DNA from: Verrucomicrobia bacterium Tous-C9LFEB
GTDB lineage: Bacteria > Verrucomicrobiota > Verrucomicrobiia > Methylacidiphilales > UBA1321
Assembly (NCBI GenBank): GCA_002304345.1
Contig: NEUU01000002.1
Location: 62,001-126,000 of the forward strand
Length of the DNA: 64,000 nt
Direction: 5' to 3'
How positions within the stretch are numbered: position 1 is the first letter of the stretch; each line of letters opens with the position of its first letter. A program made the translations under genes and the position numbers. Positions 43,791 to 63,292 of the stretch are shown here, one piece after another. Under the pieces are notes generated by a model. The model ran no database searches, had not been told where the DNA came from, and was given only the letters and a program-made list of their open reading frames with translations.

Positions 43791-43813
43791 TACTCTGTAA
43801 AAGTAAAGTTCCC

Positions 43814-45380: not shown

Positions 45381-46233
45381 GGCTTGGCAAAAAGTAGCAG
45401 TACGCGTTCCGGCGACAACAGCGAATCTTGGTCCGGGGTTCGATAGTCTCGGCGTGGCCCTGCGCCTGCACAACACCGTAACCCTCCGCCCCGGCGTGCA
45501 AACGCACCTCCCGCCGATGTTTTCCGCCACGGCCAAAACCTTTTTCAGCGCCGCGAAGACCAAGCCCTTTCCCTTCTCCGTGGAAATCACCGGCGATGTC
45601 CCGATCTCGCGCGGACTCGGCAGCAGCGTCACGGTTCGGCTCGGTATTCTCGCCGGTCTGAACCAACTCGCGGAGTGTCCACTCACTCCCGAACAAGTCC
45701 TCGCGCTCGTCGTGGAAATGGAAGGACACCCGGACAATGCCGTCCCGGCTTTCTACGGCGGATTCGCCGCCTGTGCCGCCTCGAAATTCCTCAACGTCCC
45801 CGTCTCTCCCCAATTAAAATTCATCGCGCTGATTCCGGACTTTATGATGGAAACCAGCTCCGCGCGCAAAGTATTGCCGAAGCAAGTCTCCCTTGCTGAT
45901 GCCGTGAGCAACCTGCAACATTCCTCCGTCATCACCGCCGCTTTTTGCGCCAAGCAATACGATGCGCTCGCGGGCCTCTTCACGGATCGCCTGCATCAGC
46001 CCTATCGCGCCAAACTGATTCCCGGTTTCAAGGAAGTCCTCGCCGTGGCGGAAAAGAATGGCGCGCTCGGCAGTTTCTTGAGCGGGTCCGGTTCCACGCT
46101 GATGGCGATCACCTTGAAAAATGCCGAAGCTATCCGCGCCGCCATGCTGCGGGTCGCACGCAAGCATCTCCCCTCGCCCGAAGCCCACATCCTCACTGCC
46201 GATAACAACGGCCTCCAGATCAAGGCGAGCTGA
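45379..46233 (+). CDS. thrB: Homoserine kinase
   Basis: A 284-residue GHMP kinase starting MAWQKVAVRVPATTANLGPGFDSLG, the typical ThrB opening. The ATP-binding GHMP loop is ISRGLGSSVTVRLG, and the C-terminal FLSGSGSTLMAI is the second conserved motif. It phosphorylates homoserine in threonine synthesis. The family start fits 45379; an ATG at 45331 would add 16 residues and overlap the acyltransferase gene by 50 nt. No thrA or thrC is in the window. It converges on ftsZ across a short repeat (46247-46302). Confidence 0.95.
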   Translation: MAWQKVAVRVPATTANLGPGFDSLGVALRLHNTVTLRPGVQTHLPPMFSATAKTFFSAAKTKPFPFSVEITGDVPISRGLGSSVTVRLGILAGLNQLAECPLTPEQVLALVVEMEGHPDNAVPAFYGGFAACAASKFLNVPVSPQLKFIALIPDFMMETSSARKVLPKQVSLADAVSNLQHSSVITAAFCAKQYDALAGLFTDRLHQPYRAKLIPGFKEVLAVAEKNGALGSFLSGSGSTLMAITLKNAEAIRAAMLRVARKHLPSPEAHILTADNNGLQIKAS

Positions 46234-46246
46234 TATTCGCCCTTAA

Positions 46247-46302
46247 GTGGGGTTTCCAAAAGGAATCATTCCCTTTGGCGGGGTAAGGGGCAGAGCCCCT
46301 TA
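46247..46302. repeat. Short element D2 at the thrB/ftsZ junction
   Basis: GTGGGGTTTCC then AAAAGGAATCATTCCCTTTGG, then GGGGCAGAGCCCC. It matches the right half of the 310-bp element before argG (25645-25705). Its last 3 nt are the ftsZ stop codon. The TAAGGGGCagaGCCCCTTA hairpin may end transcription of ftsZ. Confidence 0.75.
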
Positions 46303-47655
46303 TAAACGAATCGCGAGTTTACGGCGACGGAAAGTCGGTTGATCGAGATTTTCGCCTTTATAAATCGTCTCGATAGATTTCTCGAAACGGCCGCGATGAC
46401 TGCCATCGAACTGCAGTTCTTCCTGCTTCGCGATGTATTTCTTCGTCTTCTTACCCGGGATCACCACCGACGCATCGTTCGCCGCCGTAGCCTTTCCGCG
46501 AAGCGGCGCTACCAATTCCTCATCGGTTTCCGCAGCTTCTTCAAATTCTACCTCAGATTCCTCAGCAGCGTTCTCTTGCAGTTCGGCGAGGCTCGGCAGC
46601 GGCACCGTATCGTGCACCATGCGCTGCGGTTCCGGCTCGGGTTCCATCTCCACAATCGGCGTGGCCGGAGCCACAGTCCGGGCGAGCAACACGGTAAGGC
46701 GCAGCTTCGACTTGCACGTTTCCTCCAGCGTTGCCCCGGTGGCCACGGGGAAATCGGCCGGCAACCGCTTTTGCAATTCCGCCAGCATGTTCTGCACTTG
46801 CACGAGACTCAAATCGCCGCCGCCGGAAAGGCAGACGATCGCGTGATCGGCCTGAGACCAGACTTCCTCGGTAAAAAGCGGACTGCTCAAGGCGTCATCG
46901 ACCAGGCGCTTGATATCCTTCGTGCTGGAGACTTCGCTCCAGCCGGCCCAGCAATTTTCCGTGATCGCGTTATTCGTCAACCGACCATACAGGCTGCGCA
47001 CATCGGCGAAGCTGAGCTGGATCAAGCCGGGCTTGCTCAGAATTTGCGCCAACGCCTCGATGCTGTGGCCTGCAAGCTGATTGATGACGTGAAATCCCTG
47101 GCGAATATTTCCGGAGGCTTGCGGTAAAGTGGTGATGCGGTCATTGGCAAAAACCAGAACCGAATCCGCGCACCGGCGCAGGCGTTCCAAAGACTTGTTC
47201 GCCATGGTCTGACGACGACGGCTTTCGAACGAGAACGGCATCGTCGCCACCACGATGGTGCGAATGCCCTGCTTGCTCGCCTGGATGACCAGTTCGGGAG
47301 CCACCATGCACGCCGTCGCACCGCCGAGACCAACAGAGAGAATCAAATGATTGCAGCCACTGACCGCTTCCGTGAGCTTGTCGCTGCAGGCCGTCGCGAT
47401 TTCCGCCGCGACTTCGTGATCGCCACCGCAACCGAGACCGCGGGTGATTTCCGCCCCGAGCAACAGGCGTTGTTTGACGACGGAACCCTCGATCGATTGC
47501 TGGTCGGTATCCACCACGAGCATGTCGTAGCGATCCATGCCGTACATGACGATCTGATCCAGCGCGCCGATGCCCGCCTGACCGAGACCGATCACGCGAA
47601 GGCGATTGGCCGGACTGCCGTTGCTCTGAGACTCGTCGATTTTGAATTCGATCAT
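46300..47655 (-). CDS. ftsZ: Cell division protein FtsZ, highly divergent
   Basis: A 451-residue FtsZ/tubulin-fold protein at the end of the dcw cluster, right after ftsA, with a Shine-Dalgarno (GAGGTG) before ATG 47655. The order of FtsZ motifs is intact: VIGLGQAGIGA (T1), VVDTDQQSI (T2), VGLGGATACM (T4), TMPFSFES (T5), FANDRITTL (T6) and QLSFADVRSL (T7). The tubulin signature GGGTGTG is changed (residues 109-117), and in T7 the Asn and first Asp are Gln213 and Ser215, with only Asp218 kept. A long acidic linker ends in LDQPTFRRRKLAIRL, which resembles the FtsA/ZipA-binding tail. Polymerisation and GTP hydrolysis may therefore be altered. The identity is firm from order and fold. Confidence 0.9.
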   Translation of the reverse strand: MIEFKIDESQSNGSPANRLRVIGLGQAGIGALDQIVMYGMDRYDMLVVDTDQQSIEGSVVKQRLLLGAEITRGLGCGGDHEVAAEIATACSDKLTEAVSGCNHLILSVGLGGATACMVAPELVIQASKQGIRTIVVATMPFSFESRRRQTMANKSLERLRRCADSVLVFANDRITTLPQASGNIRQGFHVINQLAGHSIEALAQILSKPGLIQLSFADVRSLYGRLTNNAITENCWAGWSEVSSTKDIKRLVDDALSSPLFTEEVWSQADHAIVCLSGGGDLSLVQVQNMLAELQKRLPADFPVATGATLEETCKSKLRLTVLLARTVAPATPIVEMEPEPEPQRMVHDTVPLPSLAELQENAAEESEVEFEEAAETDEELVAPLRGKATAANDASVVIPGKKTKKYIAKQEELQFDGSHRGRFEKSIETIYKGENLDQPTFRRRKLAIRL

Positions 47656-47697
47656 ATCCGCACCTCTTTTATTTTCCCGCATGGCCGTGTTCAGTCC

Positions 47698-48933
47698 CTA
47701 AATTAACCGGATTCCAGTCAGCACCTTCTTGATGGATTGCGACATCCGCGCCCAACCGCGGGCGGGTGGCTCTTCCATTTCCGCCTGACGAGCGTACTGC
47801 AAAAGTCCGAGCACCGTGCTCAGGTCGGGACGGTTCGCATAATTCTGATCCCCATCGAGTGGGAACTGATTGCCCATGTCCACCGGGAAAGGGAAGATTT
47901 TCGACGCGAGTTCCTTCAATCCCTTTACCTGCGACGCACCACCGGTCAGATAAATCGTCCCGGCGAAATCTTCCCAGAACGGCTGACGCTCCAAGTCGGC
48001 GAGCACGATTTCCAGCGTCTCGGCCTGGCGCGCCTGCATGATCGTCACCAGCGATTCGCGATAGATCTGCCGCTCTTCGAAATTGAAATCGCCCACGAGC
48101 GCGATGCGTTCGTGACGTTGTTCCGGAACAAGAATGACCGCCCCTTCCGTCTTCTTGAGCATTTCCGCTTTCGAATAGGGAATCTTCAAGCCCGCCACGA
48201 TGTCGTTGGTCAAATGTTCGCCGCCGACTCCGAGCACGCCCGCATGAACCACCGAGCCACGTTCGTAGGCGATGTAATCCGTGACGCCGCCACCGAGATT
48301 GATCACCACCGCACCGAGCTGCTTGTCGCTGGGTCGCAACACCGCCTGCGCCGTAGCATAAGCGCTGAGCGCGTAATTTTTGACATCGATGGAGAGTTCC
48401 TTAACGCACTTGATCGAGGTCAACAGTCGTGTGGCGAGTCCGTAGACGAGGTGATAATCCGCCGCAAGCCGGCGCGTGACCAAGCCAACGGGATTATCTG
48501 TCTGCGATTCGTCGTCGAGAATGTAGTGCTGCAACAGATCATGAATGAGCGCGTAATCAGTCGGCAAGGCGTGCTTGCGCGCCATGTCGCGCAGTTCATA
48601 GAGATGATCCTCGGTGACTTCGCCGTTTTCCGTGTTCACGGCGACGCTGTGGCGCACACTCGTCGAGCAAATGTGCGCGCCTGAAATCGCGAGATAGACT
48701 TCGCCCACCGTCACGCCGGTCTTCGCTTCCGCATCGGCCAGCGCATCCTGCACGCAACGCTGCGCGGTTTCAAAATCCACGATCTCGCATTTGCGCACCT
48801 GACCCGAAGGACCTTCCCCAATACCCAGCAGCGCCATGCTGCCGTCCGCACGCAATTCGGCCACGGCGGTGGCGATCTTGGTGCTGCCAATCTCGAGCGC
48901 GACGATGATATTTCGGTCATTTTTCCAGAACAT
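47698..48933 (-). CDS. ftsA: Cell division protein FtsA
   Basis: A 411-residue actin-fold protein that tethers FtsZ to the membrane. It shows NIIVALEIGSTKIATAVAEL (phosphate-1), VVINLGGGVTDYIAYERG (phosphate-2), the 1C domain (VYLAISGAHICSTSVRHSV) and a late IYLTGGASQVKGLKEL motif. The C-terminal end SQSIKKVLTGIRLI is a clear amphipathic membrane-targeting helix. ATG 48933 has a good Shine-Dalgarno (GAGGAG). It lies 42 nt upstream of ftsZ and 23 nt after ftsQ. Length and motifs are normal, which contrasts with the degenerate FtsZ it serves. Confidence 0.96.
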   Translation of the reverse strand: MFWKNDRNIIVALEIGSTKIATAVAELRADGSMALLGIGEGPSGQVRKCEIVDFETAQRCVQDALADAEAKTGVTVGEVYLAISGAHICSTSVRHSVAVNTENGEVTEDHLYELRDMARKHALPTDYALIHDLLQHYILDDESQTDNPVGLVTRRLAADYHLVYGLATRLLTSIKCVKELSIDVKNYALSAYATAQAVLRPSDKQLGAVVINLGGGVTDYIAYERGSVVHAGVLGVGGEHLTNDIVAGLKIPYSKAEMLKKTEGAVILVPEQRHERIALVGDFNFEERQIYRESLVTIMQARQAETLEIVLADLERQPFWEDFAGTIYLTGGASQVKGLKELASKIFPFPVDMGNQFPLDGDQNYANRPDLSTVLGLLQYARQAEMEEPPARGWARMSQSIKKVLTGIRLI

Positions 48934-48956: not shown

Positions 48957-49817
48957 TTATTGGACAAAAGTCACGGGTACGTTGCGGTCGAGGGTCAGGT
49001 CGACCGTGCGAATTTGTTTATTGTTGGTCTGCGCGTATTCCAAAATTTCCTGCAGGCGATGGATCTGCTGTCCGATGTAATCCATGCGGAAGAACACCAC
49101 CGCGCCGTCGCGGGTGGTGACCTTGAGCGCCAACGGTTGGCTCACGTCAATGGTCTGCACATCGAGGGCGCTGCCCAGCGTGGTGGTTTCCAGCGCCTTG
49201 AGCAAGCTGATGGCCACGACGACTTCGGGCTGAGAAATCCGCAGACCCGCGTCGAGATCGCGATTGCGCAGGCCGACGATTTCCGGCAACGGACGCGTCG
49301 CTTCGCCGGGGCGCGGCTTGAAGATGACGTATTGATCGCGGTCGATGTAGAAGACTTCGGAACGGTTCAGATCGGAGATCACCGCCGTGACTTTGACGAT
49401 CGGGTTGCGCTCGGTGATCTTGATCACGAGCTTGCCGGGCAGATGCTTTTCCACGCGCGCTTCGGCGACGTAAGGCAGTCGTTCGATGTTGCGCTGCACC
49501 CGGCCGAGGTCGATGGTCCAGATGTTGTCCCCGGTGGAAACTCCCGCCGCCTGCCGGATCTGACGCTGGGAATAATCGCCTCGCGTGGCAACGACGATCT
49601 CGCGCACGGAGTATTCGGGATTGGTGTAGAGCGCCTTGCTGAGAAGTCGCTCCATCGCGAAATGCGTGGCCACTCCGGCACCGGTCAAGGTCATGAGCAA
49701 GAGCAATCCCCACGCCGCATGGCGCGCCAGCTTCCGGCGGTTGTGACGCTGTTGCGTCGCCGCCAGGAGGACGTTGATCTCGTTATGACGTAGGCGTGAG
49801 CCGGGGCGTCGGTTCAT
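48957..49817 (-). CDS. ftsQ: Cell division protein FtsQ
   Basis: A 286-residue bitopic protein: a basic cytoplasmic N terminus, one membrane helix (AAWGLLLLMTLTGAGVATHF, about 34-54), a POTRA domain (YSVREIVVATRGDYSQRQIRQAAGVSTGDNIW...LPYVAEARVEKHLPGKLVIKITERNP) and the FtsQ beta domain. FtsQ links early and late divisome proteins. ATG 49817 overlaps the ddl stop as ATGA, which indicates translational coupling. A reading from 50012 would run through ddl and is not needed. Confidence 0.92.
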   Translation of the reverse strand: MNRRPGSRLRHNEINVLLAATQQRHNRRKLARHAAWGLLLLMTLTGAGVATHFAMERLLSKALYTNPEYSVREIVVATRGDYSQRQIRQAAGVSTGDNIWTIDLGRVQRNIERLPYVAEARVEKHLPGKLVIKITERNPIVKVTAVISDLNRSEVFYIDRDQYVIFKPRPGEATRPLPEIVGLRNRDLDAGLRISQPEVVVAISLLKALETTTLGSALDVQTIDVSQPLALKVTTRDGAVVFFRMDYIGQQIHRLQEILEYAQTNNKQIRTVDLTLDRNVPVTFVQ

Positions 49818-50725
49818 GGTTTCGAATTCTGAAAAGCTGCGTAGGTTTTTTCCGCAATAAGCGCGCAAAGTTGGGGCATCGTATAGCCAGCGACCTTGGC
49901 CGCATCCGGCACGAGGCTGGTGGCGGTCATGCCGGGAACGGTGTTGACCTCGAGAAGATACGGCTGACCGTCCTCCGCGAGCATCACGTCGACGCGGGAA
50001 TAAATGCCACAACCGAGAACCTCGTGGGCACGCAGCGCGACGCGCTGTACAATGGCCGTGATTTCAGGGTCAAGCGGCGCCGGGCACAAATGTTCCGATG
50101 CACCGGGAGTATACTTGTTTGTATAGTCGTAGAAACCGGCTTTGATGCGAATCTCGATCACGGGCAGCGCTTTCCCGTCGAGAATACCGACGGTGAGCTC
50201 TTTGCCAACAATCAACTTCTCCACCAGTGCACGATCTCCATAGCGCAAGGCTTCGTTCAACGCAGTCTTGAGTTGCTCCGCGTTATGGACAAGCGTAACC
50301 CCTACGCTGGAACCCTGGCAGGGTGGCTTCACCGCGACAGGTAGTTCGAGAGTCAAGTCTTCCACGCTCGAGATCAGCTGGCTTTGCGGCGTGGGCAATC
50401 CGTTCTCGATGAAAATGGATTTCGTCACGACCTTATCGAACGCGTCGCGGCTGGCCGTTTCGTTGCTGCCGGTGTAGGGAATCCCCAGTTTCGAGAGAAT
50501 GCGCTGGAGTTTGCCGTCCTCGCCAAAGGTGCCGTGCAGGCAGACAAAGACGAGTTCGGTTCCGGCGGGAATTTCCACCGTTTCGCCCTCGACGGTAACC
50601 GATGTCACTTCATAGCCGGATTCGGTCAGCGCCTTGGCCACCGCCGCGCCGCTTCGGAGCGAGACTTCGCGTTCCGTGGACGGTCCGCCTTGCAGGACGG
50701 TGATTTTTTTAAAGGTGCGACTCAT
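49814..50725 (-). CDS. ddl: D-alanine--D-alanine ligase
   Basis: A 303-residue ATP-grasp ligase that makes the D-Ala-D-Ala dipeptide for MurF. It opens KKITVLQGGPSTEREVSLRSG and contains FVCLHGTFGEDGKLQ, PYTGSNETASRDAFDKVVTK, PVAVKPPCQGSSVGVT (ATP-grasp) and the metal-binding end LEVNTVPGMTATSL. Its start overlaps the murC-murB stop by one base (TAATG), and its stop overlaps ftsQ. The murC-B to ddl order recalls the MurC-Ddl fusion of chlamydiae, here as separate genes. Confidence 0.96.
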   Translation of the reverse strand: MSRTFKKITVLQGGPSTEREVSLRSGAAVAKALTESGYEVTSVTVEGETVEIPAGTELVFVCLHGTFGEDGKLQRILSKLGIPYTGSNETASRDAFDKVVTKSIFIENGLPTPQSQLISSVEDLTLELPVAVKPPCQGSSVGVTLVHNAEQLKTALNEALRYGDRALVEKLIVGKELTVGILDGKALPVIEIRIKAGFYDYTNKYTPGASEHLCPAPLDPEITAIVQRVALRAHEVLGCGIYSRVDVMLAEDGQPYLLEVNTVPGMTATSLVPDAAKVAGYTMPQLCALIAEKTYAAFQNSKP

Positions 50726-53019
50726 TATAAATCCTCTCCGATGACGATGACTTCTGTTTCGAGTTCGATCTGGCGCTTCTCGCGCGCTTCCGCTTTGACG
50801 ATCTCAATCAAAGCGAGCATGTCCTTGGACGTGGCACCGCCGTCATTGACGATGAAATTGCCGTGCTCGACCGAGACGCGGGCCTTGCCGACGGAACGGT
50901 TTTTGAGGCCCAACTCGTCGACGAGTTTGCCCGCCGGGATCGTTTCCGGGTTCTTGAAAATGCATCCGGCGCTGGGCGCGGCGGGTTGCGAACTCCAGCG
51001 TTTTTCGCTGAACTTCTTCAATCGCTCGCTGATTTCCTGCGGCGCACTCGGCGTACCGCGCAGCTTAGCCGAGAGGGCGATGTTCTGTTCGAAATGCGGC
51101 ACGCTGCGGTAGCGCACTTCGAGATTCTCGCGCTTCTCCACTTGAATTTCACCGCGATAATTCATCGAGCGGATTTCCTCGACCACTTCCATGGTCCAGC
51201 CCTGCATCGCTCCAGCGTTCATGCGCAAGGCACCGCCGAGATTGCCGGGAATGCCTTCCATGAATTCGAGTCCGCCCAAGCCATTCTTCTTGGCCTCCGC
51301 GACAATATTCTTCAGTCGCACGCCCGCTCCGGCATTGATATTGATACCGTCCACCGTGACCTGATTGAAGTGCGGTTGCCCCAGATGAATGCAGAGCCCG
51401 CGGATGCCGCCGTCGCGCACGAGCAGATTGGTGCCGCGACCAATCACGGTCACCGGAACCCCGCGTTTGAGCGCATGCTTCAAACCCTTGGCCAAATCCT
51501 CTTCATCGACGGGCTCGAACCAGAGGTCCGCCGGGCCACCGACTCGCAGCGACGTGTGTTTGGAAAGCGGTTCTTCGCGCAGCAGCACGCTCTCGGGCTT
51601 GAGCTCCTTGCGCAACGCCTCGAAGGCGGCAAGATCTTCCGCCAGCTTCGTCGCCACGCGGTGGATATCGCCCGCCCCGAGCGTGATCACGAGATCGCCG
51701 GGTTCGATCGCATGCGAGACGCGACGGCGCAGTCGCACCAGGCTGGACTCAAATTCGACATGCGCATTACCCGCCTCGCGAACGACCGCCGCGAGTGATT
51801 CTCCGGAAACACCTTCCAGCGGCTGCTCGCTCGCCGCATAAATTTCCGTGAGGTAAACGCGACTGGCGTCCTTGAACGCCGGACCGAAATCTTCGAGCAA
51901 CAACTTGGTGCGCGTGTAGCGGTGCGGTTGAAACAGGGCAATGACACGCTTCCAACCACTATTGTGCGCGGCCGCCAGCGTGGCGAGAATTTCGGTCGGG
52001 TGATGGGCGTAGTCGTCGACCACCATGAAATTCTGGCTGACGTATTTGACTTCGAAGCGGCGCTTCGCACCGCGAAATTCCGCAAGCGCGTCGACAATAT
52101 CCTTCCAGTCCACACCGAGTTCGGTCGCCATCGCGGCCACACCCGCCGCATTGCGGACGTTTTGCTTGCCGGGAATATTGAGAGTGATATCACCGAGCAG
52201 AACGCCGTTCTTGAGGAGCTTGAACGTGGATGAAAAATTCTGTGCGTGGACGTCGATGATGCGGTAGTTGGCATGCTCCGAGCAGCCGTAACCGATGGAG
52301 CCTTCGTGGTGCGAGCAGAGCAGAACGGCGTTCTTGTCATCGGCGCAGTAGAAGACCGGGCCGGTGGTCTGTTCGATCAATTGGGCGAAGGTGCGCAAAA
52401 TCTCATCGAGACTGCCGTAGTAGTCGAGGTGTTCTTCTTCGACATTCAGAATCATCGACGCATGCGGATGGTAGAGCGAGATGGTGCCGTCGCTTTCGTC
52501 GCCTTCGACCACAAAGTGATGCCCTTCATCCCACGCCGCGCTGGCGCCGAGGATCGGCACTTCCGCGCCGATGTAGTGGGCGCAACGCCAATCGGCATGA
52601 CGCAACACCCAAGCGAGCATCGACGAAGTGGTCGTCTTGCCATGCATGCCCGCCACGACGAGCGATTGCTTTTGCTCGGTGAGCATCGCCAGACATTCCG
52701 CGCGGCGCGCAACCTGGATACCCGCCTTCACCGCTGCCTTGCGCTCGGGATTGGCGGGCGTGATTGCAGAAGAGTAGACGACAAGCTCGGTGCCCGTGAC
52801 GTTGCTGCCTTCGTGCCCCTTGAAAAATTTAAGTCCGAGCGCTTCCAGACGACCGACTTCCGCCGAACGATTCAGATCGGAACCGGAAACGTGATGACCA
52901 AGTTGCATCAGGAGCCGGGCCAACCCGCTCATGCCGCTGCCCGCCACCCCGATGAGGTGGATGCGCGCGCCCGGCTTGCTCAGCAATTGGCGAAGGTAGT
53001 TATTTAATTCCGGCTGCAT
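50725..53019 (-). CDS. murC-murB: MurC-MurB fusion (UDP-MurNAc:L-Ala ligase / UDP-MurNAc dehydrogenase)
   Basis: A single 764-residue frame. Residues 1 to about 455 are MurC: HLIGVAGSGMSGLARLLMQLG, the P-loop GMHGKTTTSSML, NVEEEHLDYYGS and a C-terminal VDDYAHHPTEI. Residues from about 475 are MurB: LREEPLSKHTSLRVGGPADLWFEP and VIGRGTNLLVRDGGIRG bind FAD, EGIPGNLGGALRMNAGA follows, and SAGCIFKNPE carries the catalytic acid, here Cys rather than Ser. The two enzymes catalyse consecutive steps (MurB, then MurC). The 16-nt overlap with murG and the 1-nt overlap with ddl show tight packing. Confidence 0.96.
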   Translation of the reverse strand: MQPELNNYLRQLLSKPGARIHLIGVAGSGMSGLARLLMQLGHHVSGSDLNRSAEVGRLEALGLKFFKGHEGSNVTGTELVVYSSAITPANPERKAAVKAGIQVARRAECLAMLTEQKQSLVVAGMHGKTTTSSMLAWVLRHADWRCAHYIGAEVPILGASAAWDEGHHFVVEGDESDGTISLYHPHASMILNVEEEHLDYYGSLDEILRTFAQLIEQTTGPVFYCADDKNAVLLCSHHEGSIGYGCSEHANYRIIDVHAQNFSSTFKLLKNGVLLGDITLNIPGKQNVRNAAGVAAMATELGVDWKDIVDALAEFRGAKRRFEVKYVSQNFMVVDDYAHHPTEILATLAAAHNSGWKRVIALFQPHRYTRTKLLLEDFGPAFKDASRVYLTEIYAASEQPLEGVSGESLAAVVREAGNAHVEFESSLVRLRRRVSHAIEPGDLVITLGAGDIHRVATKLAEDLAAFEALRKELKPESVLLREEPLSKHTSLRVGGPADLWFEPVDEEDLAKGLKHALKRGVPVTVIGRGTNLLVRDGGIRGLCIHLGQPHFNQVTVDGININAGAGVRLKNIVAEAKKNGLGGLEFMEGIPGNLGGALRMNAGAMQGWTMEVVEEIRSMNYRGEIQVEKRENLEVRYRSVPHFEQNIALSAKLRGTPSAPQEISERLKKFSEKRWSSQPAAPSAGCIFKNPETIPAGKLVDELGLKNRSVGKARVSVEHGNFIVNDGGATSKDMLALIEIVKAEAREKRQIELETEVIVIGEDL

Positions 53020-54104
53020 TTTTCAATTTCCTCCGCGACGCGGCGCGCGGCTTCTTTTCCCGCCAGTCCTGAGGCGGCCCGGCCCATGCGTTCGCGCTCG
53101 GTTTGATCCTCGAGCAGGCGGGTGACTTCCTCAGCAAGCCGCGGCGCGGTGAGTTTGCCCTCGGCAAAAACAGCGGCGGCTCCGGCGTCTCCAAAAATCC
53201 GGGCGTTATAGGTCTGGTGATCGTGCGCGGCGGTGGGCAAAGGAATGAGAATGCTCGGCAAGCCGTAATGGCTGAGTTCCGTAAGCGAGCTGGCCCCTGA
53301 CCGGGCAATGACGAGGTCCGCGAGGCTGTAAAGATATTCCATTTCGGAGCTGAAGGGCTGCACGACGGCGGTAAGACGTTGGCGGCGGTAGTTGATCTCC
53401 ACGATATTCGCGTCGGCGTTTCCGGTAAGATGGACGAACTGCCAGCGATCACGCTGGTTCGCCACAAGAGGCAACATCTTGAGCACCAGCTCGTTGACCC
53501 CGCGTGCGCCCTGGCTGCCGCCCATGATGAGAATGGTTTTGAACTCAGGATGAAGTCCAAACTTCTCGGCTGCTTCCGCGCGAGGCACCTGCCGCAGTCC
53601 TTGCCGCACCGGTGTGCCCGTGACGACCCAGCGGGCGTTGCTGAGATAACTGCCGCAAGCTGAAAAACCAAGGAGTGTCCGCGTCACGCGCGGCGCGACG
53701 AGTTGCGTCACGCGACCGGGAATGGCGTTGGACTCGTGCAACAACGTGGCGAGGTGTTGGCGATTGGCCAGCATCAGGGGCACAGCGCTGGTGAAGCCGC
53801 CCATGCCGAGCACGGCATCGGGTTCGAAATCGCGGAAAATCGCCCGGCATTCACGCCAGGATTTCAACAGCGTCGTGGCAAATTTGAAAATGCGCGGACT
53901 GGTCAAGCCTGGCCAGCCGACGGTGGAAATCGCCCGTGAATTTTGTTGAGCCGAGCCTTGCAACGCCACGGCATCAATTTGCTTGGATGAAACCAGCAGC
54001 AACGTCTCGTGCCCGCGTTGGCGCAGTTCTTCCGCCACGGCCAGACCTGGGAACAGGTGGCCGCCGGAACCGCCGCATGCGATGGCTATACGAAGTGCAC
54101 TCAT
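53004..54104 (-). CDS. murG: UDP-GlcNAc:undecaprenyl-PP-MurNAc-pentapeptide transferase
   Basis: A 366-residue GT-B enzyme that turns lipid I into lipid II at the inner face of the membrane. Motifs: IAIACGGSGGHLFPGLAVAEEL (first G-loop), VLGMGGFTSAVPLMLA, HESNAIPGRVTQLVAPRV, ILIMGGSQGARGVNELV (second G-loop) and RSGASSLTELSHYGLPSILIPLPTAAHDHQTYNA for UDP-GlcNAc. Length is normal. It starts 6 nt after the ftsW stop and ends inside murC-B. Confidence 0.97.
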   Translation of the reverse strand: MSALRIAIACGGSGGHLFPGLAVAEELRQRGHETLLLVSSKQIDAVALQGSAQQNSRAISTVGWPGLTSPRIFKFATTLLKSWRECRAIFRDFEPDAVLGMGGFTSAVPLMLANRQHLATLLHESNAIPGRVTQLVAPRVTRTLLGFSACGSYLSNARWVVTGTPVRQGLRQVPRAEAAEKFGLHPEFKTILIMGGSQGARGVNELVLKMLPLVANQRDRWQFVHLTGNADANIVEINYRRQRLTAVVQPFSSEMEYLYSLADLVIARSGASSLTELSHYGLPSILIPLPTAAHDHQTYNARIFGDAGAAAVFAEGKLTAPRLAEEVTRLLEDQTERERMGRAASGLAGKEAARRVAEEIEKCSRN

Positions 54105-54110
54105 CTGATT

Positions 54111-55280
54111 CTACATCCTCGGACTGCTGCGCGGAGGCAACAGTTCCTCGTTTCCATTGGGGGTGTCATAGGTCCCCTGCCGCTGGATATTAAATAACAC
54201 GCCGACCGCCGCCAGACACACCAGCAGGTTCGAGCCTCCATAGCTGATGAACGGCAACGGCATACCCTTGTTGGGCATCATGGAGGTGACCACCGCGAGG
54301 TTGATCAGCGCCTGCACACCCAGCATGGTCGTGATCCCGATCCCGAGGAAAACCCCGGTCGGGTCCGGAGCGGAAATGGTAATCCATCCGCTCGCCAAAA
54401 CCAATACCAGAAATGCCGTCACAACCGCCAGAGCCACCCACATGCCAAGCTCTTCTCCCGCGATCGGGAAAATGCAGTCGGTCGACGCTTCGGGCAGATA
54501 GAACATCTTTTGACGGCTATTGCCGAGACCGAGACCGTTCAATCCGCCGGAGCCCAACGCGATCAATCCCTGCCAGACCTGATAGGCCGAAGTTTCCCGG
54601 AATTTCTCCGGGTCCATGAAGGCAAAAAAACGTCCGCGTTTGGCGGGCATGAAATACGCCATCGTCATCAACCCGATCAACCCCACAATCGGAACGGGAA
54701 AGAGATAGCGTTTTTTCGCACCCGCGCAAAACATCACCACGGCAAAGATCAGCACCAGCATCGCGGCGGCACCGAGATCACCCTGCCGGAAGTGAAGTCG
54801 CGGAAACATGATCAGAACACAAAGAGCACCCACGACAGCGGCGGGCATCAGGAACCCCTTCAGGATATCCCCCGCGTGTCGTTGATGTTTGGACATCCAC
54901 CAGGCCAGGAAAAAGATGAGCGCCACTTTCGCGAATTCGGAAGGCTGGAAATTCATTCCGGCAATCGAAATCCAGCGATATGCGCCATTCACCTTCTTGC
55001 CAATGCCCGGGACAAAAACGAGCAGGAGCAGGAACACCGCCGCCGCCACGCCATACGGCGCGTAGCGGACCAGCAGATGGTAATCCAGCCGCGACATGGT
55101 CACGCAGAGGATTGCCCCCACTCCCAACCACATGGCCTGACGCTTCAGATTGTAGTACACCTCGCCGCCATTATGCGTGGCATAGGGCGCGCTGGTGCTG
55201 AAGAGCATGACCAGCCCGAAGGCGACCAAGCCCAGCACAATCACCAGCAGGATGTATCCAACCTGTCGTTGTAGAGCCAT
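54111..55280 (-). CDS. ftsW: Septal peptidoglycan glycosyltransferase FtsW (SEDS)
   Basis: A 389-residue SEDS-family membrane protein with about ten helices. Landmarks are VMLFSTSAPYA near the N terminus, GAYRWISIAGMNFQPSEFAKVALIFFLAWW, a RFFAFMDPEKFRETSAYQVWQGLIALGSGGLNGLGLG loop, EASTDCIFPIAGEELGM and the end NKGMPLPFISYGGSNLLVCL. These are the FtsW/RodA signatures. It polymerises glycan at the septum with FtsI. It lies between the LysM protein and murG. FtsW rather than RodA follows from the position. Confidence 0.95.
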   Translation of the reverse strand: MALQRQVGYILLVIVLGLVAFGLVMLFSTSAPYATHNGGEVYYNLKRQAMWLGVGAILCVTMSRLDYHLLVRYAPYGVAAAVFLLLLVFVPGIGKKVNGAYRWISIAGMNFQPSEFAKVALIFFLAWWMSKHQRHAGDILKGFLMPAAVVGALCVLIMFPRLHFRQGDLGAAAMLVLIFAVVMFCAGAKKRYLFPVPIVGLIGLMTMAYFMPAKRGRFFAFMDPEKFRETSAYQVWQGLIALGSGGLNGLGLGNSRQKMFYLPEASTDCIFPIAGEELGMWVALAVVTAFLVLVLASGWITISAPDPTGVFLGIGITTMLGVQALINLAVVTSMMPNKGMPLPFISYGGSNLLVCLAAVGVLFNIQRQGTYDTPNGNEELLPPRSSPRM

Positions 55281-56238: not shown

Positions 56239-57576
56239 CTATTTGTTTGGGGTTGAAAGTTTCGCCTGCACCGCCGAGCGGAACAGATCACCGCGCTCGA
56301 CGTAGCTCGAGAACATATCGTAGCTCGAGCAGCCGGGTGAAAAGAGGACGACATCGCCCGAGCGCGCCAGCCGTTGAGCGGCATCGACCGCGTCGTTGAG
56401 CGTCTCGACCTTGTGGCACGGCACCGCCGAATGCCACCAGTCGTAAAACTTGTCCTTCATCTGACCGAGCAACACGATCTCGCGCACCTTCTCACGCAAG
56501 AGCGGACGCAGCCCGCTGAAGTCGAGTCCCTTGTCCTTGCCACCCGCGATCAGGACGACCGGAGCGCGCATGGCGAGGAGCGCCTTTTCGAGCGCATCGA
56601 TGTTGGTCGCCTTGGAGTCGTTCAAGTAGGTGACTCCATTGACCACGCCGACTTTTTCGCAGCGGTGCGGTTGCGGCACGTAATTGCACATCGCCTCGAT
56701 CGCGGCCTGACGCGGAACGTTGTAGAGATCCGCCACGGCGAGGGCCGCGAGCAGATTTTCCGCGTTGTGCGGACCGACGAGATTCGTCTTGTCGAGTGCC
56801 ACGACCGGCTCGCCACGCGCGGTGAGCATGCCGTCAATGAGTTGATAATCCGCCGGTTTGCCGAACGCGCTGAAGGTAATCTTTTGCGCGCGAAAATTCT
56901 TCGGCAATTCCACGTCAACGTTGACGATGGCAAAATCGTCCGGTGTCTGGTTCTTGTAAATCTCCCATTTCGCGGCGCGATACTCTTCCATCGTCGCGTA
57001 ACGATCCAGGTGATCCGGGGTGAGATTCAGATGAACACTCACGCGCGGACGGAAATCGACCGTGCATTCGAGCTGGAATGAACTGACCTCCAGCACCATT
57101 ACGTCGAGCTCTGCGCTCTTCGCCACGGCGGCGGAGAATGCCTTGCCGATGTTGCCGGAAGCCATCGTGCGCTTCTCGCCAGCCGTGAGTAATGCAGCGA
57201 CCAATTCGGTCGTCGTCGTCTTGCCGTTGGTGCCGGTGATTGCCACGATCGGGCATTCGCAAAAACGGAAAGCCATTTCCAACTCGCCCATGAGCGGCAA
57301 GCGGGCCTGCGTCAACGTCTGCACGAGTGGCACCGACGGATCGATGCCGGGGCTGAGCACGCCAAAGTCAAAATTGGCGGTGGATTTGACTTCGCTGCCA
57401 ATCTCCACGGCGATGCCTTCCTGTCGCATCGCTTCCGCGCGCGCCTGGTGCTTGGCACTGCTGCCGTTATCGCGGATGAGAACGTCCGCGCCGAACTTCT
57501 TTAAAAGTTTAGCGACTTCCATACCACTTTCTCCCAGTCCGAGGACCACTATTTTCTTTCCGACCACATTCATCAT
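56239..57576 (-). CDS. murD: UDP-MurNAc-L-alanine:D-glutamate ligase
   Basis: A 445-residue Mur ligase. KKIVVLGLGESGMEVAKLL is the UDP-binding start, ITGTNGKTTTTELVAALL the ATP P-loop, LNLTPDHLDRYATMEEYRAAKWEIY the Mur-ligase middle block, and YLNDSKATNIDALEKAL...VVLIAGGKDKGLDFSGL the C-terminal domain. It adds D-Glu to UDP-MurNAc-L-Ala. Two ATGs open the frame (57576 and 57573); either is possible. The gene starts 13 nt after mraY. Confidence 0.96.
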   Translation of the reverse strand: MMNVVGKKIVVLGLGESGMEVAKLLKKFGADVLIRDNGSSAKHQARAEAMRQEGIAVEIGSEVKSTANFDFGVLSPGIDPSVPLVQTLTQARLPLMGELEMAFRFCECPIVAITGTNGKTTTTELVAALLTAGEKRTMASGNIGKAFSAAVAKSAELDVMVLEVSSFQLECTVDFRPRVSVHLNLTPDHLDRYATMEEYRAAKWEIYKNQTPDDFAIVNVDVELPKNFRAQKITFSAFGKPADYQLIDGMLTARGEPVVALDKTNLVGPHNAENLLAALAVADLYNVPRQAAIEAMCNYVPQPHRCEKVGVVNGVTYLNDSKATNIDALEKALLAMRAPVVLIAGGKDKGLDFSGLRPLLREKVREIVLLGQMKDKFYDWWHSAVPCHKVETLNDAVDAAQRLARSGDVVLFSPGCSSYDMFSSYVERGDLFRSAVQAKLSTPNK

Positions 57577-57589: not shown

Positions 57590-58699
57590 TTACCGTAGTT
57601 TCAGGGTGGACAAGGCAAGCAAGGCGAAAAGTATGCTCAAAATCCAAAAGCGAATCGTTACGGTCGATTCGTTCCAACCACGTAATTCGAAGTGATGATG
57701 AATGGGTGACATCGCAAACAGGCGTTTGCCGCCCGTCGCCTTGAACCAGCCCACCTGCAGCAGAACCGAGCCCGCTTCCATCACAAAAACACCGCCCGCG
57801 ATCACCAGCACCAATTCCTGATGCACGCAGATCGCCACCACGGCCAGTGCACCGCCAATGGCAAGCGAACCGGTATCCCCCATGAACACCTTGGCCGGGT
57901 GACAATTCCACCAGAGGAACCCAAGACTCGCTCCAATCAGGGCTGCGCAAAAAACCGTGAGCTCGCTGGCACCGGGAACATAGGGAATAAAGAGATATGG
58001 CGCGAACTTCGCATTGCCCGCCACGTAGCAGAAGATCGCGTAGACACTCGCCACCGTCACCGTGCAGCCAGCGGCCAGTCCGTCGAGTCCATCCGTGAGA
58101 TTCACCGCGTTGGAAGAACCCATGATCACGAGCGCGAAGAAAAGGAATCCGAGAATGAGACCCATTTCCACGAGCGGTTGTTTCCAGAACGGAATATACA
58201 GCTTCGTGGCGTGTTCGGCGGTTTCGGGATTGTACTTCAGGCAGGCCGTCACCAACGCCGCAAGCATGAACTGCGCAATCAATTTTTGCCGTCCAGCCAT
58301 GCCAGCGGATTTTTTCTTCGTGACCTTGAGGTAATCGTCGAGGAACCCAATCCCACCGAGATAAAGCATGGAGATCAGCACCAGCCAGACATAGGGATTT
58401 GTCGGACGGCACCAGAGCAGCGCACTGATCGTCACAGACGCGAGAATGAGAATGCCACCCATGGTGGGCGTGCCCTTCTTGCTGCTATGGAGGTCGGCGA
58501 GTTTGTGCACTTCCTCCTTCGAACGAAGTGGCTGACCAAGCTTGAGACGCGTCAGGATGCGAATCGTCCACGGTCCGACCCAAATGCAAATGAGCAGTGA
58601 CGTCAGCGCCGCGCCGAGGGCTCGGATGGTGTGGTACTGAAAGACGTTCAGGAAGCCTAGAGCGTCGATCTCCTGCAATTTGTGTAAGTAGTAAAGCAT
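57590..58699 (-). CDS. mraY: Phospho-MurNAc-pentapeptide transferase
   Basis: A 369-residue ten-helix enzyme making lipid I on undecaprenyl phosphate. It shows KKGTPTMGGILILASV, GFLDDYLKVTKKKSAGMAGRQKLIAQ (catalytic DDY), NAVNLTDGLDGLAAG, KVFMGDTGSLAIGGALA and MSPIHHHFELRGWNESTVTIRFW, all family hallmarks. ATG 58699 overlaps the murF stop (TAATG); a reading from 58786 would extend into murF and is unlikely. Confidence 0.97.
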   Translation of the reverse strand: MLYYLHKLQEIDALGFLNVFQYHTIRALGAALTSLLICIWVGPWTIRILTRLKLGQPLRSKEEVHKLADLHSSKKGTPTMGGILILASVTISALLWCRPTNPYVWLVLISMLYLGGIGFLDDYLKVTKKKSAGMAGRQKLIAQFMLAALVTACLKYNPETAEHATKLYIPFWKQPLVEMGLILGFLFFALVIMGSSNAVNLTDGLDGLAAGCTVTVASVYAIFCYVAGNAKFAPYLFIPYVPGASELTVFCAALIGASLGFLWWNCHPAKVFMGDTGSLAIGGALAVVAICVHQELVLVIAGGVFVMEAGSVLLQVGWFKATGGKRLFAMSPIHHHFELRGWNESTVTIRFWILSILFALLALSTLKLR

Positions 58700-60105
58700 T
58701 AGTGCGCGCCTCCGTTTGTCACGCCGGTCAGGGCTTGCACCAGTTTTTCCAATTGCATAAAACGAGAGCCTTTCACGAGAACGCAATCTTCATCCCCGCT
58801 AAAATGTGTTTTCAGCGCCTCAAGCGCTTGTTCCGGTTTGTGGCAGAGAAGAATTTGCTCCTTCTTCATGCCCGCGCCGTGAGCACCGTGCTGCATGTCG
58901 TGCGCGTTCGGTCCCAGAACGATCAAAAGATCGAGATTCGCTTTCTCCGCCGCTTCACCAATCTGCCGGTGCAGCTCGATCGCGCGATCGCCCAGTTCGC
59001 CCATCGATCCGAGCACCGCGATCTTGCGGCCCGCCGCGGGAAATTCCTTGAGCGACTGCAAGGCCGCTCGCATCGAATCGGGATTGGCGTTATAGGCGTC
59101 GTTAATGATCCAGCGACCTTCCGGGGTGCGGCTCACTTCCATGCGCTGCGCGGGAAGCTGAACGGTTTCCAGACCATGAACGATTTCCTCGAACGTCACT
59201 CCGCAGCAACTGCCTGCGGCAGCAGCAAGCAGCGCATTGACCACCATGGGACGGCTATAGAGCGGGAGCGTGACGGACGCCTTGTTGGTGCCATGGCGCA
59301 AATCGAAACGAATGCCGCGCGTGGTGACTTCCAGATTTTCCGCGCGCCATTCCGCTTGCGAGGAAAGTCCCGCGAGCACCACTCGTGCGTGCGTGCGGGC
59401 ACGGATGACCGCCGTCCACGGATCGTCCGCGTTCAACACGGCCACACCATTGTTCGGCAGATTGGCAATCATCTCCGATTTCTCGAGTGCGATGCCTGCC
59501 GGGTCCTTGAAAAATTCAATGTGAGCGGAGCCGACATTGGTAATGAGGCCAATCTCGGGAGTTGCCATGTTTACGAGCGGCTTCAGTTCGCCCGGATGGT
59601 TCATACCCATCTCGACCACGGCAAATTCGTGTTCCTCCTCGAGGGCGAGCAGAGTGCGTGGCACGCCGATGTGATTATTCAGATTGCCCTGCGTGGCGTG
59701 GGTTTTGTAATGCTGGCGCAGGACATTCGCGGTCATTTCCTTCGTGCTGGTCTTGCCGCTGCTACCGGTCACGCCAACCACGCGCACCGAGAGTCGTGCG
59801 CGATAGTCCGCCGCAAATTTCTGCAGGGCGATCAGTGTGTCCCCGGCTTCCACCAGACCAAAGCCTTCCGGCAACGTGGAGGGATTCTCGATGCGACTGA
59901 CCAGCGCCGCCGCAGCGCCCTTTGCCGCCGCTTCCGCCACGTAGTCGTTACCGTCGAATTTTTCGCCCTTGAGCGCGACAAAGCAATCGCCCGGCTGCAA
60001 CGTCCGTGTGTCGGTGTGCAGGCGCTTGATGATCAGTCCCGATTCGCCACGGCGCAAGGCCGAGCCGGACCGTTCCGCCAGTTGAAGAAGCGTGCAGGGA
60101 ATCAT
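58699..60105 (-). CDS. murF: UDP-MurNAc-tripeptide--D-Ala-D-Ala ligase
   Basis: A 468-residue Mur ligase. The N-terminal substrate domain (IIKRLHTDTRTLQPGDCFVALKGEKFDGNDYV) is followed by the P-loop VVGVTGSSGKTSTKEMTANVL, the MGMNHPGELKPLVNMATPEIGLITNVGSAHIEF block and the C-terminal domain with WIINDAYNANPDSMRAALQSL. It adds D-Ala-D-Ala (made by Ddl) to complete the pentapeptide. ATG 60105 overlaps the murE stop as ATGA. Confidence 0.97.
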   Translation of the reverse strand: MIPCTLLQLAERSGSALRRGESGLIIKRLHTDTRTLQPGDCFVALKGEKFDGNDYVAEAAAKGAAAALVSRIENPSTLPEGFGLVEAGDTLIALQKFAADYRARLSVRVVGVTGSSGKTSTKEMTANVLRQHYKTHATQGNLNNHIGVPRTLLALEEEHEFAVVEMGMNHPGELKPLVNMATPEIGLITNVGSAHIEFFKDPAGIALEKSEMIANLPNNGVAVLNADDPWTAVIRARTHARVVLAGLSSQAEWRAENLEVTTRGIRFDLRHGTNKASVTLPLYSRPMVVNALLAAAAGSCCGVTFEEIVHGLETVQLPAQRMEVSRTPEGRWIINDAYNANPDSMRAALQSLKEFPAAGRKIAVLGSMGELGDRAIELHRQIGEAAEKANLDLLIVLGPNAHDMQHGAHGAGMKKEQILLCHKPEQALEALKTHFSGDEDCVLVKGSRFMQLEKLVQALTGVTNGGAH

Positions 60106-61586
60106 GAGGTTGTCCTCCGCGCTAAAAATTCCTTCACCGCGATGCGGTCATCAAAAGGGGTGAACTTGCCCGCGATCTCCTGAGTGGACTCGTGTCCCTT
60201 GCCCGCCACGCAAATAATGTCGCCGGGCTGCGCCAGGGCGAGCGCCCGCGCAATGGCTTCGCGCCGGTCGGGTAGGCGGGAGTAATTCGTAGCCGAACCC
60301 ACGCCAGCAACCATATCGTCGAGAATCTTTTCGATGGATTCATCGCGCGGATTATCCGCCGTGAAGATTGCTTCGTCCGCCAATTCCACCGCCGCGCGCG
60401 CCATCTTGGGCCGCTTGGTGACATCGCGATTGCCACCACAACCAACAACGATGATCAAACGTCCACGACACAGCGGCCGCAACACCTGCAAGGCTTTGCT
60501 TACCGCATCGTCGGTATGCGCGTAATCGACCACGGCCGTGACGCCGTCCTGCGAGGCAAAGCATTCCAAACGACCGGGAGCCGAATGCACCGAGGCCAGC
60601 TTTGCCACAATCGCTTCGGCATCCACCCCGGCGGCGAGCGCCGCACCGGCGGCGGCAAAGGCATTGGAGGCGTTGAAGCTGCCAAGCAACGGCAAGCGCA
60701 ACGGATAACTCTTGCCCAAAATGACAACCTCGCCAGTAATGCCTCGCGCGGAATAGGTCACGTTACGACCGAAAATCTCTACGTCTTCGCGTGCGACAGA
60801 ATAACGGATCTGACGCACCGCCTTGGACAAGGATCGCGAGATACGCTCGCTATAGGAATCGTCCGCATTCAATACGGCGACGCCGGAACTGCGTGAGCGA
60901 TCAAGATTCTGGAAGAGGAGTTTCTTCGCATCGAAATAATTCTCCATCGTACCGTGATAATCGAGGTGATCCTGCGTGAGATTGGTAAACACGCCGACAC
61001 TGTATTCGATCGGCAACACACGCCCCTGCGCCAGCGCATGCGAGGAGACCTCCATGACGAGACTCTTGCATTGCGCGGAAACCATCATGGCCAGCAATTC
61101 GTGCAGGTCCGAACCTTCCGGCGTCGTACGCTTCGCAGGAAGGATGCGCTGGCCAATCTCGTACTGCACGGTGCCGATCAAACCGACCGTGGACCCCGCA
61201 CTTTCGAGTAATTGCTTCGTGAGATACGCGGTCGTGGTCTTGCCGTTGGTTCCGGTGATGCCGATCGTCTGTAGCTTGCGGTCGGGACGACCATAATACG
61301 TGGCAGCCATGCGAGCCAGCGCGCGACGCGCATCCGGCACGGCGATGTAGGTCGGGCCCAGACGGCCCATGAGGCTGGCGTCTTCAAGCACGATGGCGGC
61401 GGCGCCACGGTCGCACACTTCGGGAATGAATTGATGCCCGTCCAGATGCGCCCCACGCCACGCGAAGAACACATCGTTCGCGGCCACCCGGCGCGAATCG
61501 TAGCGAAGCGCGGCGATCTCGCGATCAAGGTTGCCCCCGAGCACGACGCCCTTGCTTTCGGCGGGAAGGAGTTCAGCTAGTTTCAT
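60102..61586 (-). CDS. murE: UDP-MurNAc-dipeptide--meso-diaminopimelate ligase
   Basis: A 494-residue Mur ligase: IAALRYDSRRVAANDVFFAWRG, the P-loop IGITGTNGKTTTAYLTKQLL, NLTQDHLDYHGTMENYFDAKKLLF, and the C-terminal VVDYAHTDDAVSKALQVLRPL. TADNPRDESIEKI contains the DNPR motif that marks enzymes adding meso-diaminopimelate rather than lysine, so the wall is expected to be the DAP type. ATG 61586 overlaps the ftsI stop (ATGA). The longer reading to 62132 lies inside ftsI and is rejected. Confidence 0.97.
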   Translation of the reverse strand: MKLAELLPAESKGVVLGGNLDREIAALRYDSRRVAANDVFFAWRGAHLDGHQFIPEVCDRGAAAIVLEDASLMGRLGPTYIAVPDARRALARMAATYYGRPDRKLQTIGITGTNGKTTTAYLTKQLLESAGSTVGLIGTVQYEIGQRILPAKRTTPEGSDLHELLAMMVSAQCKSLVMEVSSHALAQGRVLPIEYSVGVFTNLTQDHLDYHGTMENYFDAKKLLFQNLDRSRSSGVAVLNADDSYSERISRSLSKAVRQIRYSVAREDVEIFGRNVTYSARGITGEVVILGKSYPLRLPLLGSFNASNAFAAAGAALAAGVDAEAIVAKLASVHSAPGRLECFASQDGVTAVVDYAHTDDAVSKALQVLRPLCRGRLIIVVGCGGNRDVTKRPKMARAAVELADEAIFTADNPRDESIEKILDDMVAGVGSATNYSRLPDRREAIARALALAQPGDIICVAGKGHESTQEIAGKFTPFDDRIAVKEFLARRTTS

Positions 61587-63292
61587 AGCTTGGCCTGCGT
61601 CACGCCCGCAGTCTCCTTCTTGGGTTCGAGGTTCAGGCACTGGACAATCTTTTTGCTCATCTCGGCAAACGCGGGCGCGGCGACCTGACCGCCGTAGTAC
61701 TGCTTGCCCTTCGGTTCGTCGACCATGACAAGCATGACGAACTGGGGGTTCTCCGCCGGGAGATAACCGATGAACGAAGCGACATACTTTTCCTTCGAGT
61801 ATTCGCCATTCACAAACTTTTGCGCCGTGCCGGTCTTGCCCGCCACGGTGAAACCAGGAACAGACGCCGCCTGTGCCGTACCCTGATCGGAAACAACATC
61901 CTCGAGCGATTGGGTCATCATGCGGGCCGTGCTCGGGGCGATGACCTGCCGCACCATGCGCGGGCTGTAAATTTCCACCACACGACCTTCGCTGTCGTTG
62001 ACCTGCTTGACGATGCGCGGAGTCATCAGCGCTCCACCGTTCGCAACCGCCGACATGGCGCTGATCATTTGCAGCGGCGTGGCCGCCACGCCCTGCCCCA
62101 TCGGGACGCGCGTGATGGAGACCTTGGACCACTGACTGAGCGGCCGCAGGATGCCCGCCGATTCGCCCTGACGCGACAGAATGCCAGTGACCCGGCCAAA
62201 GCCAAAGGCTTGCAAATAGGGGAAAAGTTTTTCCTGACCGAGCATGAGCGCGATCTTGCCCGTGCCGATGTTACTGGATTTGGCGATGACTTCCCGGACG
62301 GTCATCATGCCGTAGCGTTCATGATCGTGCAGCGTGAAACCGCCATAGTAGAACTCGCCGTTCTCGCAGAAAATCGGAGTTCCGAGAGTCACGACGCCCT
62401 CATTAATGGCCGCCGCAATACTGACCGCCTTGAAGGTGGAACCTGGCTCAAACGTATCGGTGATGCAACGATTGCGCATTTGCTCTGGCTTCGCGCCGCG
62501 GCGTTCATTCGGATCGAAAGTGGGGCGATTCGCCATCGCGAGGATCTCGCCGGTGCGGGGCCGCATGACAATCACGAACGCACCCGCCGGTTGGTATTTC
62601 TGCACGAGCTTGTCGAGCTGATCCTCGATGATGTGCTGGATGCTGAGATCAATGGTGAGCGCGACCTGCATCCCGTCGACCGGTTGCAAATCCTTGCGGC
62701 GATATGCGGCGATTTCCTTGCCCTTGCGGTCCTTCTCGATCCACAGCTCGCCGGGGATGCCGCGCAGATAGGAGTTCATCTGCTTTTCAATACCGCTCGC
62801 GCCGCGATTGTCGTCACCGAGGAAGCCAATCAAATGACTGGCGTGTGCGCCATTGGGGTAACTGCGGACGGACGTTTCCTTGAAAATCAAGTTACGTACC
62901 TTCAGCTCGCGCAGGGCGACAACCATCTTTTCCTCCACGTCCTTGCGTAGCGGCAGGTAGCGGGCCTCGGGATTGTAGGATTTGGCCAGTTGATCGGCAG
63001 GCAATTCGAGGATAGAAGCGATTTGCTTGAGCGTTTCCTCGGGATCTTTCAGGTCCTGGCAATCGAGATAAATGTCGTTGATGATCCGGGTCTGGGCGAG
63101 CGTGTTGAAGGCGGAATCGACGATCGCTCCGCGGTGCGGCGGCAGCTCAATCCGGCGCAAATGATTGTTGATCGCGAGGTCCTGATACTTCTCGTGATCG
63201 ACAAGCATGATCTGCACGAGACGCAGTGAGACCAGCGTGAACCCGAATGCCAGGAACACGATGACGTAAAGCGCTCGTTGCCGATGATTCAT
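61583..63292 (-). CDS. ftsI: Septal transpeptidase FtsI (PBP3)
   Basis: A 569-residue class B penicillin-binding protein. One N-terminal membrane helix (about 8-30) leads to the dimerisation region (IELPPHRGAIVDSAFNTLAQT) and the transpeptidase domain with STFK in FEPGSTFKAVS, SSN in AKSSNIGTGKIALML and KTGTA in VAGKTGTAQKF. It cross-links septal peptidoglycan as the partner of FtsW. ATG 63292 lies 15 nt after the nearer FtsL-like gene, and the stop overlaps murE. Length is typical. Confidence 0.96.
   Translation of the reverse strand: MNHRQRALYVIVFLAFGFTLVSLRLVQIMLVDHEKYQDLAINNHLRRIELPPHRGAIVDSAFNTLAQTRIINDIYLDCQDLKDPEETLKQIASILELPADQLAKSYNPEARYLPLRKDVEEKMVVALRELKVRNLIFKETSVRSYPNGAHASHLIGFLGDDNRGASGIEKQMNSYLRGIPGELWIEKDRKGKEIAAYRRKDLQPVDGMQVALTIDLSIQHIIEDQLDKLVQKYQPAGAFVIVMRPRTGEILAMANRPTFDPNERRGAKPEQMRNRCITDTFEPGSTFKAVSIAAAINEGVVTLGTPIFCENGEFYYGGFTLHDHERYGMMTVREVIAKSSNIGTGKIALMLGQEKLFPYLQAFGFGRVTGILSRQGESAGILRPLSQWSKVSITRVPMGQGVAATPLQMISAMSAVANGGALMTPRIVKQVNDSEGRVVEIYSPRMVRQVIAPSTARMMTQSLEDVVSDQGTAQAASVPGFTVAGKTGTAQKFVNGEYSKEKYVASFIGYLPAENPQFVMLVMVDEPKGKQYYGGQVAAPAFAEMSKKIVQCLNLEPKKETAGVTQAKL

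Follow-up and report, generated by a model that had tools for sequence, protein, structure and literature searches.

An FtsZ with a re-specified T7 loop in a verrucomicrobial dcw cluster, and the loss of one T7 acid across nearly all sampled FtsZ of its class

Verrucomicrobia bacterium Tous-C9LFEB encodes a single-copy FtsZ in which the T7 loop follows an alternative consensus (GLIQLSFADVRS). The gene is homologous to canonical ftsZ, keeps its position in the dcw cluster and is under purifying selection, and its product retains the T5, T2 and arginine contacts as well as the C-terminal tail. The finding is real, and its scope is the class rather than this genome; the function we infer. On balance, this protein is rather probably the genuine and only division FtsZ of the cell, with a T7 loop remodelled to one acid, which would be anchored by FtsA, hydrolyze GTP slowly and form long-lived filaments as a septal scaffold. 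The window is the whole stretch of 64,000 nucleotides that was analysed (contig NEUU01000002.1, positions 62,001 to 126,000); features are listed in Table 1.

The ftsZ gene, its product and its neighbourhood

The gene lies in a minus-strand open reading frame (46300-47682; 460 aa). Its start codon is most likely at 47655, as placed in the preliminary description, because AGAGG is found seven bases upstream and relatives start with MIEF; this ribosome-binding site and these relatives make the alternative start at 47682 less likely. The product matches the Pfam Tubulin domain (PF00091; 2.6e-26, 93.5 bits against a cut-off of 33) and the FtsZ_C domain (PF12327; 1.6e-7, 31.9 bits against a cut-off of 27). 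Its homology to canonical FtsZ spans both domains and is beyond chance (FtsZ in the PDB, E 8.5e-39), and all of the 51 PDB matches listed are FtsZ, with no closer affinity to tubulin (BtubA/BtubB). The score against TIGR00065, the NCBI equivalog model of FtsZ, is 185.6 bits (1.5e-54), below the curated cut-off of 295.2. This is not peculiar to the window gene, because the cut-off excludes most FtsZ of the phylum: 190 of 194 phylum genomes (those at least 90% complete, plus the window's own at 89.67%) have a match but only 19 exceed the cut-off, whereas every control genome with a match (13 of 13) exceeds it.

In the alignment with FtsZ from E. coli MG1655, the T4 segment GMGGGTGTGAAP corresponds to GLGGATACMVAP in the window protein (G107A, G109A, T110C, G111M), and the tubulin signature [SAG]GGTG[SAT]G is replaced by GGATACM. 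T4 differs even within the genus, a relative (L003) having AFGGATASA (GGATASA in place of GGATACM). In T7, NVDFAD is changed to QLSFAD (N207Q, D209S, with D212 kept), which departs from NxDxxD with both acids. The T4 reading GLGGATACM and the T7 reading with Ser215 for D209 beside a retained Asp218, both given in the preliminary description, are borne out by this alignment. Its assignment of Ala to the T1 Asn position is wrong; E. coli N24 aligns with Gly (G39, or G30 if counted from M10), and Ala is the next residue. T2 D45 and Q47, T3 G71, T5 P134, F135, E138 and R142, and T6 N165 and D166 are kept. As had been noticed before, the C-terminal tail (KKYIAKQEELQFDGSHRGRFEKSIETIYKGENLDQPTFRRRKLAIRL) resembles the FtsA-binding peptide, and its conserved segment GENLDQPTFRRR is predicted from the sequence to have this role. 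Thus far the protein is like canonical FtsZ (E. coli, S. aureus) in its two-domain homology, its dcw place after ftsA, its T5/T6 contacts and its putative FtsA-type peptide, while it differs in having three glycines fewer in T4, in N207Q and D209S, in its long conserved tail and in a score far below the curated cut-off. An AlphaFold2 model from an alignment of only three sequences is too poor for the interface (pLDDT 47.7, pTM 0.37).

The dcw cluster, which the preliminary description called intact, indeed runs without a break in the order ftsI, murE, murF, mraY, murD, a LysM protein gene, ftsW, murG, murC-murB fusion, ddl, ftsQ, ftsA and ftsZ, with ftsZ directly after ftsA. Directly downstream of ftsZ and convergent with it is a gene for a GHMP kinase, probably homoserine kinase (45331-46233, plus strand). 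Three adjacent paralogues, near-identical among them in the N-terminal domain, are encoded at 38755-44620 (plus strand); the FecR domain (PF04773) is present in both members searched, and two of the three have long repetitive C-terminal parts.

Table 1. Coordinates of ftsZ, its motifs and the dcw genes in the window, with loci of related genes in other genomes given by locus number
Feature	Position	Strand	Basis or remark
ftsZ	46300..47655	-	451 aa; the genome's sole tubulin-family gene
C-terminal tail, conserved	46303..46443	-	nearly identical in L003, whole protein 66% identical
FtsA-binding-type peptide (putative)	46321-46356	-	highest conservation of any 12-residue segment in the family
T7 loop QLSFAD	47002..47019	-	alignment; conserved in the window's family
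Asp218 codon (E. coli D212)	47002-47004	-	T7 alignment
Ser215 codon (E. coli D209)	47011-47013	-	T7 alignment
T4 signature GLGGATACM (E. coli GMGGGTGTG)	47305..47331	-	alignment
T1 loop GLGQAGIGALD (E. coli GVGGGGGNAVE)	47557..47589	-	alignment
ftsA	47698..48933	-	directly upstream of ftsZ; TIGR01174 292.4 bits, cut-off 175.85
ftsQ	48957..49817	-	weak match to FtsQ models
ddl	49814..50725	-	
murC-murB fusion	50725..53019	-	as in V. spinosum (PMC12283558)
murG	53004..54104	-	
ftsW	54111..55280	-	TIGR02614 352.9 bits, cut-off 337.5
murD	56239..57576	-	
mraY	57590..58786	-	start codon uncertain
Mur ligase, murF by position	58699..60105	-	
Mur ligase, murE by position	60102..61580	-	
ftsI-type transpeptidase	61583..63292	-	
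FtsZ of group f37, most shortened	L170-L174, L200-L206, L208-L213, L217, L219, L221-L223		L203 is a fuller-length exception
Second tubulin-like protein	L195-L199, L230-L239		groups f22, f31, f32, f37, f39, f43, f50

Only one gene was found by PF00091 search in the window's genome (89.67% complete), and only one in a 97-98% identical relative (96% complete). A second ftsZ or BtubA/BtubB was looked for in the window's genome without success, and the second tubulin-like family of other classes described below is absent from it; the suggestion of a second tubulin elsewhere in this genome is therefore unsupported. One genome of the window's family (G003) has two divergent FtsZ copies (L009 and L074/L142; 593 and 642 aa) with different T4 and T7 motifs.

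The presence of odd residues at normally invariant sites might point to a pseudogene, a sequencing error or an assembly artefact, but this is practically ruled out by the intact frame, by the same motifs in the independent assembly of the 97-98% identical relative (L002/G002), and by dN/dS values far below 1, namely 0.039 against this relative and 0.20 against a 66-67% identical one (L003). The corresponding values of ftsA in those genomes are 0.010 and 0.054, so that dN/dS of FtsZ is about four times that of its neighbour. This contrast agrees with the accelerated evolution of ftsZ, but not of ftsA, in Methylacidiphilum (PMC2474590).

T7 states in the family, the class and the phylum

Conservation in the window's family was expressed as mean top-residue frequency in 12 FtsZ sequences with identity down to about 40%. 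Among 12-residue segments of the entire protein, the tail peptide GENLDQPTFRRR ranks first (0.97); outside the tail, the highest value belongs to GLIQLSFADVRS (0.90), which contains the altered T7. T7 itself averages 0.88, whereas the globular core has 0.69 and T4 has 0.72. The altered T7 thus ranks with the best-conserved segments of the family, and is re-specified and held by selection rather than decaying; the word "degenerate", previously applied to both motifs, fits T4 but not T7. Over the whole order, nucleotide-pocket positions (0.70) are more conserved than the remaining globular part (0.50), and the conservation of T7 (0.53) no longer stands out as it usually does.

Alignment of 124 FtsZ sequences of the phylum, covering about 50 families, a check that had been proposed, reveals that 78 of the 79 sequences from the window's class do not have both T7 acids. 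The sole acid is D209 in 31 and D212 or Glu in 46; one sequence has both and one has neither, the latter coming from a family with an unreliable T7 alignment. When group f9, where the T7 alignment is unreliable, is omitted (n=71), the numbers are 26, 44, one and zero, respectively. Both acids are present in 19 of 45 sequences from other classes and in the reference FtsZs of E. coli, S. aureus, M. tuberculosis, M. jannaschii and B. subtilis, and the T7 residues have been described as conserved across species (PMC8936486). On a quick tree built without the T7 columns, in which branches are long and deep placements unsure, the T7 states group by clade and change 18 times. The window's order is D212-only, f9 and a single long-branch sequence excepted; families f11, f13, f14, f15 and f18 form another D212-only clade, and families f10, f12, f16, f17, f19 and f20 form a D209-only clade. 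FtsZ of f12, which is the best-scoring and most canonical-looking of the class, is among those without D212 (LDFATLRQ).

Thus, the oddity implied earlier for this one genome is in fact class-wide with respect to the loss of one T7 Asp, and the general divergence of verrucomicrobial FtsZ is already known (PMC1845146, PMC2474590, PMC9871819, PMC12283558). Verrucomicrobial FtsZ is among the most divergent bacterial FtsZ (PMC9871819), and that of V. spinosum, judged canonical by its motifs, has a long branch and unusual residues at eight core positions (PMC1845146). Because nearly all sampled FtsZ of the class are without one T7 acid, division throughout the class seems to rely on a modified FtsZ engine. 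The T7 aspartates have been treated as indispensable for both assembly and hydrolysis of FtsZ, and a one-acid class with clade-specific solutions is a natural experiment that bears on the need of GTP turnover or treadmilling for division at all.

Shortened FtsZ and a second tubulin-like protein in the phylum

Comparison with a profile of the phylum FtsZ alignment reveals that many FtsZ frames in group f37, which belongs to another class, consist of the N-terminal part to just before T7 (profile positions 12-205), a short linker and the tail (390-444). This half-FtsZ, with stop-to-stop frames of 247-371 codons and no C-terminal domain, occurs in eight genera (g78, g105, g106, g117, g119, g122, g123, g124), and four (g77, g112, g121, g125) keep more of FtsZ. 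A single-contig genome (G137) has the frame intact, and in four of the first five loci checked a match to ftsA lies upstream of half-FtsZ in the same orientation. A separate FtsZ C-terminal domain was not found within the approximately 1.5 kb examined on each side. Half-FtsZ is under purifying selection where tested (for G137 compared with one relative at 96% identity and another at 77%, dN/dS is 0.16 in both cases). Among five half-FtsZ proteins, the Pfam Tubulin domain is seen in one (54 bits), faint in two and not seen in two. In group f9, which belongs to the window's order and which we guess to be the genus Methylacidiphilum (L085, L090-L093, L100, L101), T7 and the C-terminal domain are hardly recognizable by profile comparison; the ftsA linkage and the tail remain.

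A second tubulin-like protein, about 365 aa long and with GGGTGNG in T4, is also encoded in the genomes with half-FtsZ. It is 49-81% identical across families, and thus far better conserved than FtsZ of those genomes. It is present in 18 of the 194 phylum genomes, all outside the window's class; a nineteenth, marginal match (E 8e-4) overlaps the ordinary ftsZ of its genome and was not counted. Its similarity to FtsZ structures is N-terminal only, and it has neither a Pfam match above cut-off nor a PHROG match. No description of the T7 pattern, half-FtsZ or this second tubulin was found in the open-licence literature searched; earlier subscription literature (e.g. Pilhofer 2008) may mention the motifs.

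Possible mode of action and known systems

In the explanation that we favour, the window FtsZ would bind GTP and form filaments at midcell, and FtsA would anchor it via the strongly conserved tail. GTP hydrolysis would persist at a low rate, and the long-lived filaments would be less a rapidly treadmilling motor than a septal scaffold. The catalytic water in S. aureus filaments is placed by a swing of D210, its environment is held by D213 together with G72 of the neighbour, R143 is arginine-finger-like, N208 and Q48 hold K+, and D46 belongs to the Mg2+ shell (PMC8936486). In the window FtsZ, D210 and N208 are replaced by Ser and Gln, respectively, and the other listed catalytic residues are present. 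Slow hydrolysis is suggested because the water-positioning residue is absent while the equivalents of D213, R143, D46 and Q48 remain. Q48A and R143K of S. aureus FtsZ assemble with about six-fold lower GTPase activity (PMC8936486), and E. coli D212A hydrolyzes slowly and forms more numerous and longer filaments (PMC7616276). Impaired FtsZ treadmilling left constriction rates unchanged in S. aureus (PMC10994846), and V. spinosum can dispense with neither ftsZ nor its C-terminal extension (PMC12283558). On the other hand, the T7 change might abolish filaments unless compensated, because each of D210N, D213N and N208L stops assembly in S. aureus (PMC8936486). A tree-aware search of residue pairs found no compensating substitution. 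N43D was rejected as a candidate; it is fixed in the window's order, yet 24 of the 39 sequences from other classes that retain D209 also have it, and no association emerges from independent pairs.

Catalysis might instead be re-wired rather than weakened, one T7 acid together with a Ser/Gly-bound water or another residue sustaining ordinary GTPase activity and treadmilling. The persistence of both single-acid solutions in many families, with complete loss in only 1/79 as if exactly one acid sufficed, and the conservation of T7 in its new form are consistent with this; we nevertheless consider it rather unlikely, as model FtsZs need each acid (PMC8936486), E. coli D212G failing to complement and requiring suppressors for division (PMC5405962), and no replacement residue was found. 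It is unlikely to a greater degree that FtsZ is turning into a non-hydrolysing adaptor, in which dynamics are dispensable and the protein is kept mainly for the FtsA-binding tail and the nucleotide-sensing N-half. The f37 proteins, with tail and ftsA linkage but no T7 loop or C-terminal domain, the f9 proteins, and the tail, which no other part of the protein surpasses in conservation within the window's family, argue for such a change, but the window's lineage is not yet at that state, because T7 is strongly conserved there and FtsZ_C remains recognizable. Supply of turnover by a second tubulin-family protein is highly improbable: such a protein is carried by some other classes of the phylum, but none was found in the window's genome, about a tenth of which is missing from the assembly, or, with PF00091, in its near-complete relative.

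A phylum-wide stepwise conversion from a cytomotive GTPase to an FtsA-bound nucleotide-sensing adaptor can be proposed only tentatively. One T7 acid, T7 and then the C-terminal domain would be lost, half-FtsZ of f37 would be the endpoint, and cell-wall synthesis, rather than turnover of FtsZ, would drive constriction; the window's FtsZ would then be an early stage, still forming filaments. How Planctomycetota and Chlamydiota came to lose FtsZ is a long-standing question of the superphylum, and the half-FtsZ lineage may represent an intermediate stage on that path.

Among known systems, V. spinosum FtsZ (673 aa) is likewise divergent and encoded in a dcw cluster, in a genome with a murC-murB fusion, although its T4 is GGGTGSG, unlike GLGGATACM (PMC1845146, PMC12283558). 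M. infernorum, probably of the window's order, shares the acceleration of ftsZ but not ftsA (PMC2474590), whereas the f9 sequences, guessed to be of its genus, have even less of T7 and the C-terminal domain than the window protein. The FtsZ-like protein of Nitrosopumilus maritimus also has altered T4 and T7; this archaeon is thought to divide by Cdv and its protein forms no polymers in yeast (PMC3684127), while the window ftsZ is single and lies in an intact dcw cluster. D212A, D212G and other T7 mutants of E. coli FtsZ also have one T7 acid missing but, unlike the window FtsZ, are laboratory changes in an otherwise canonical protein.
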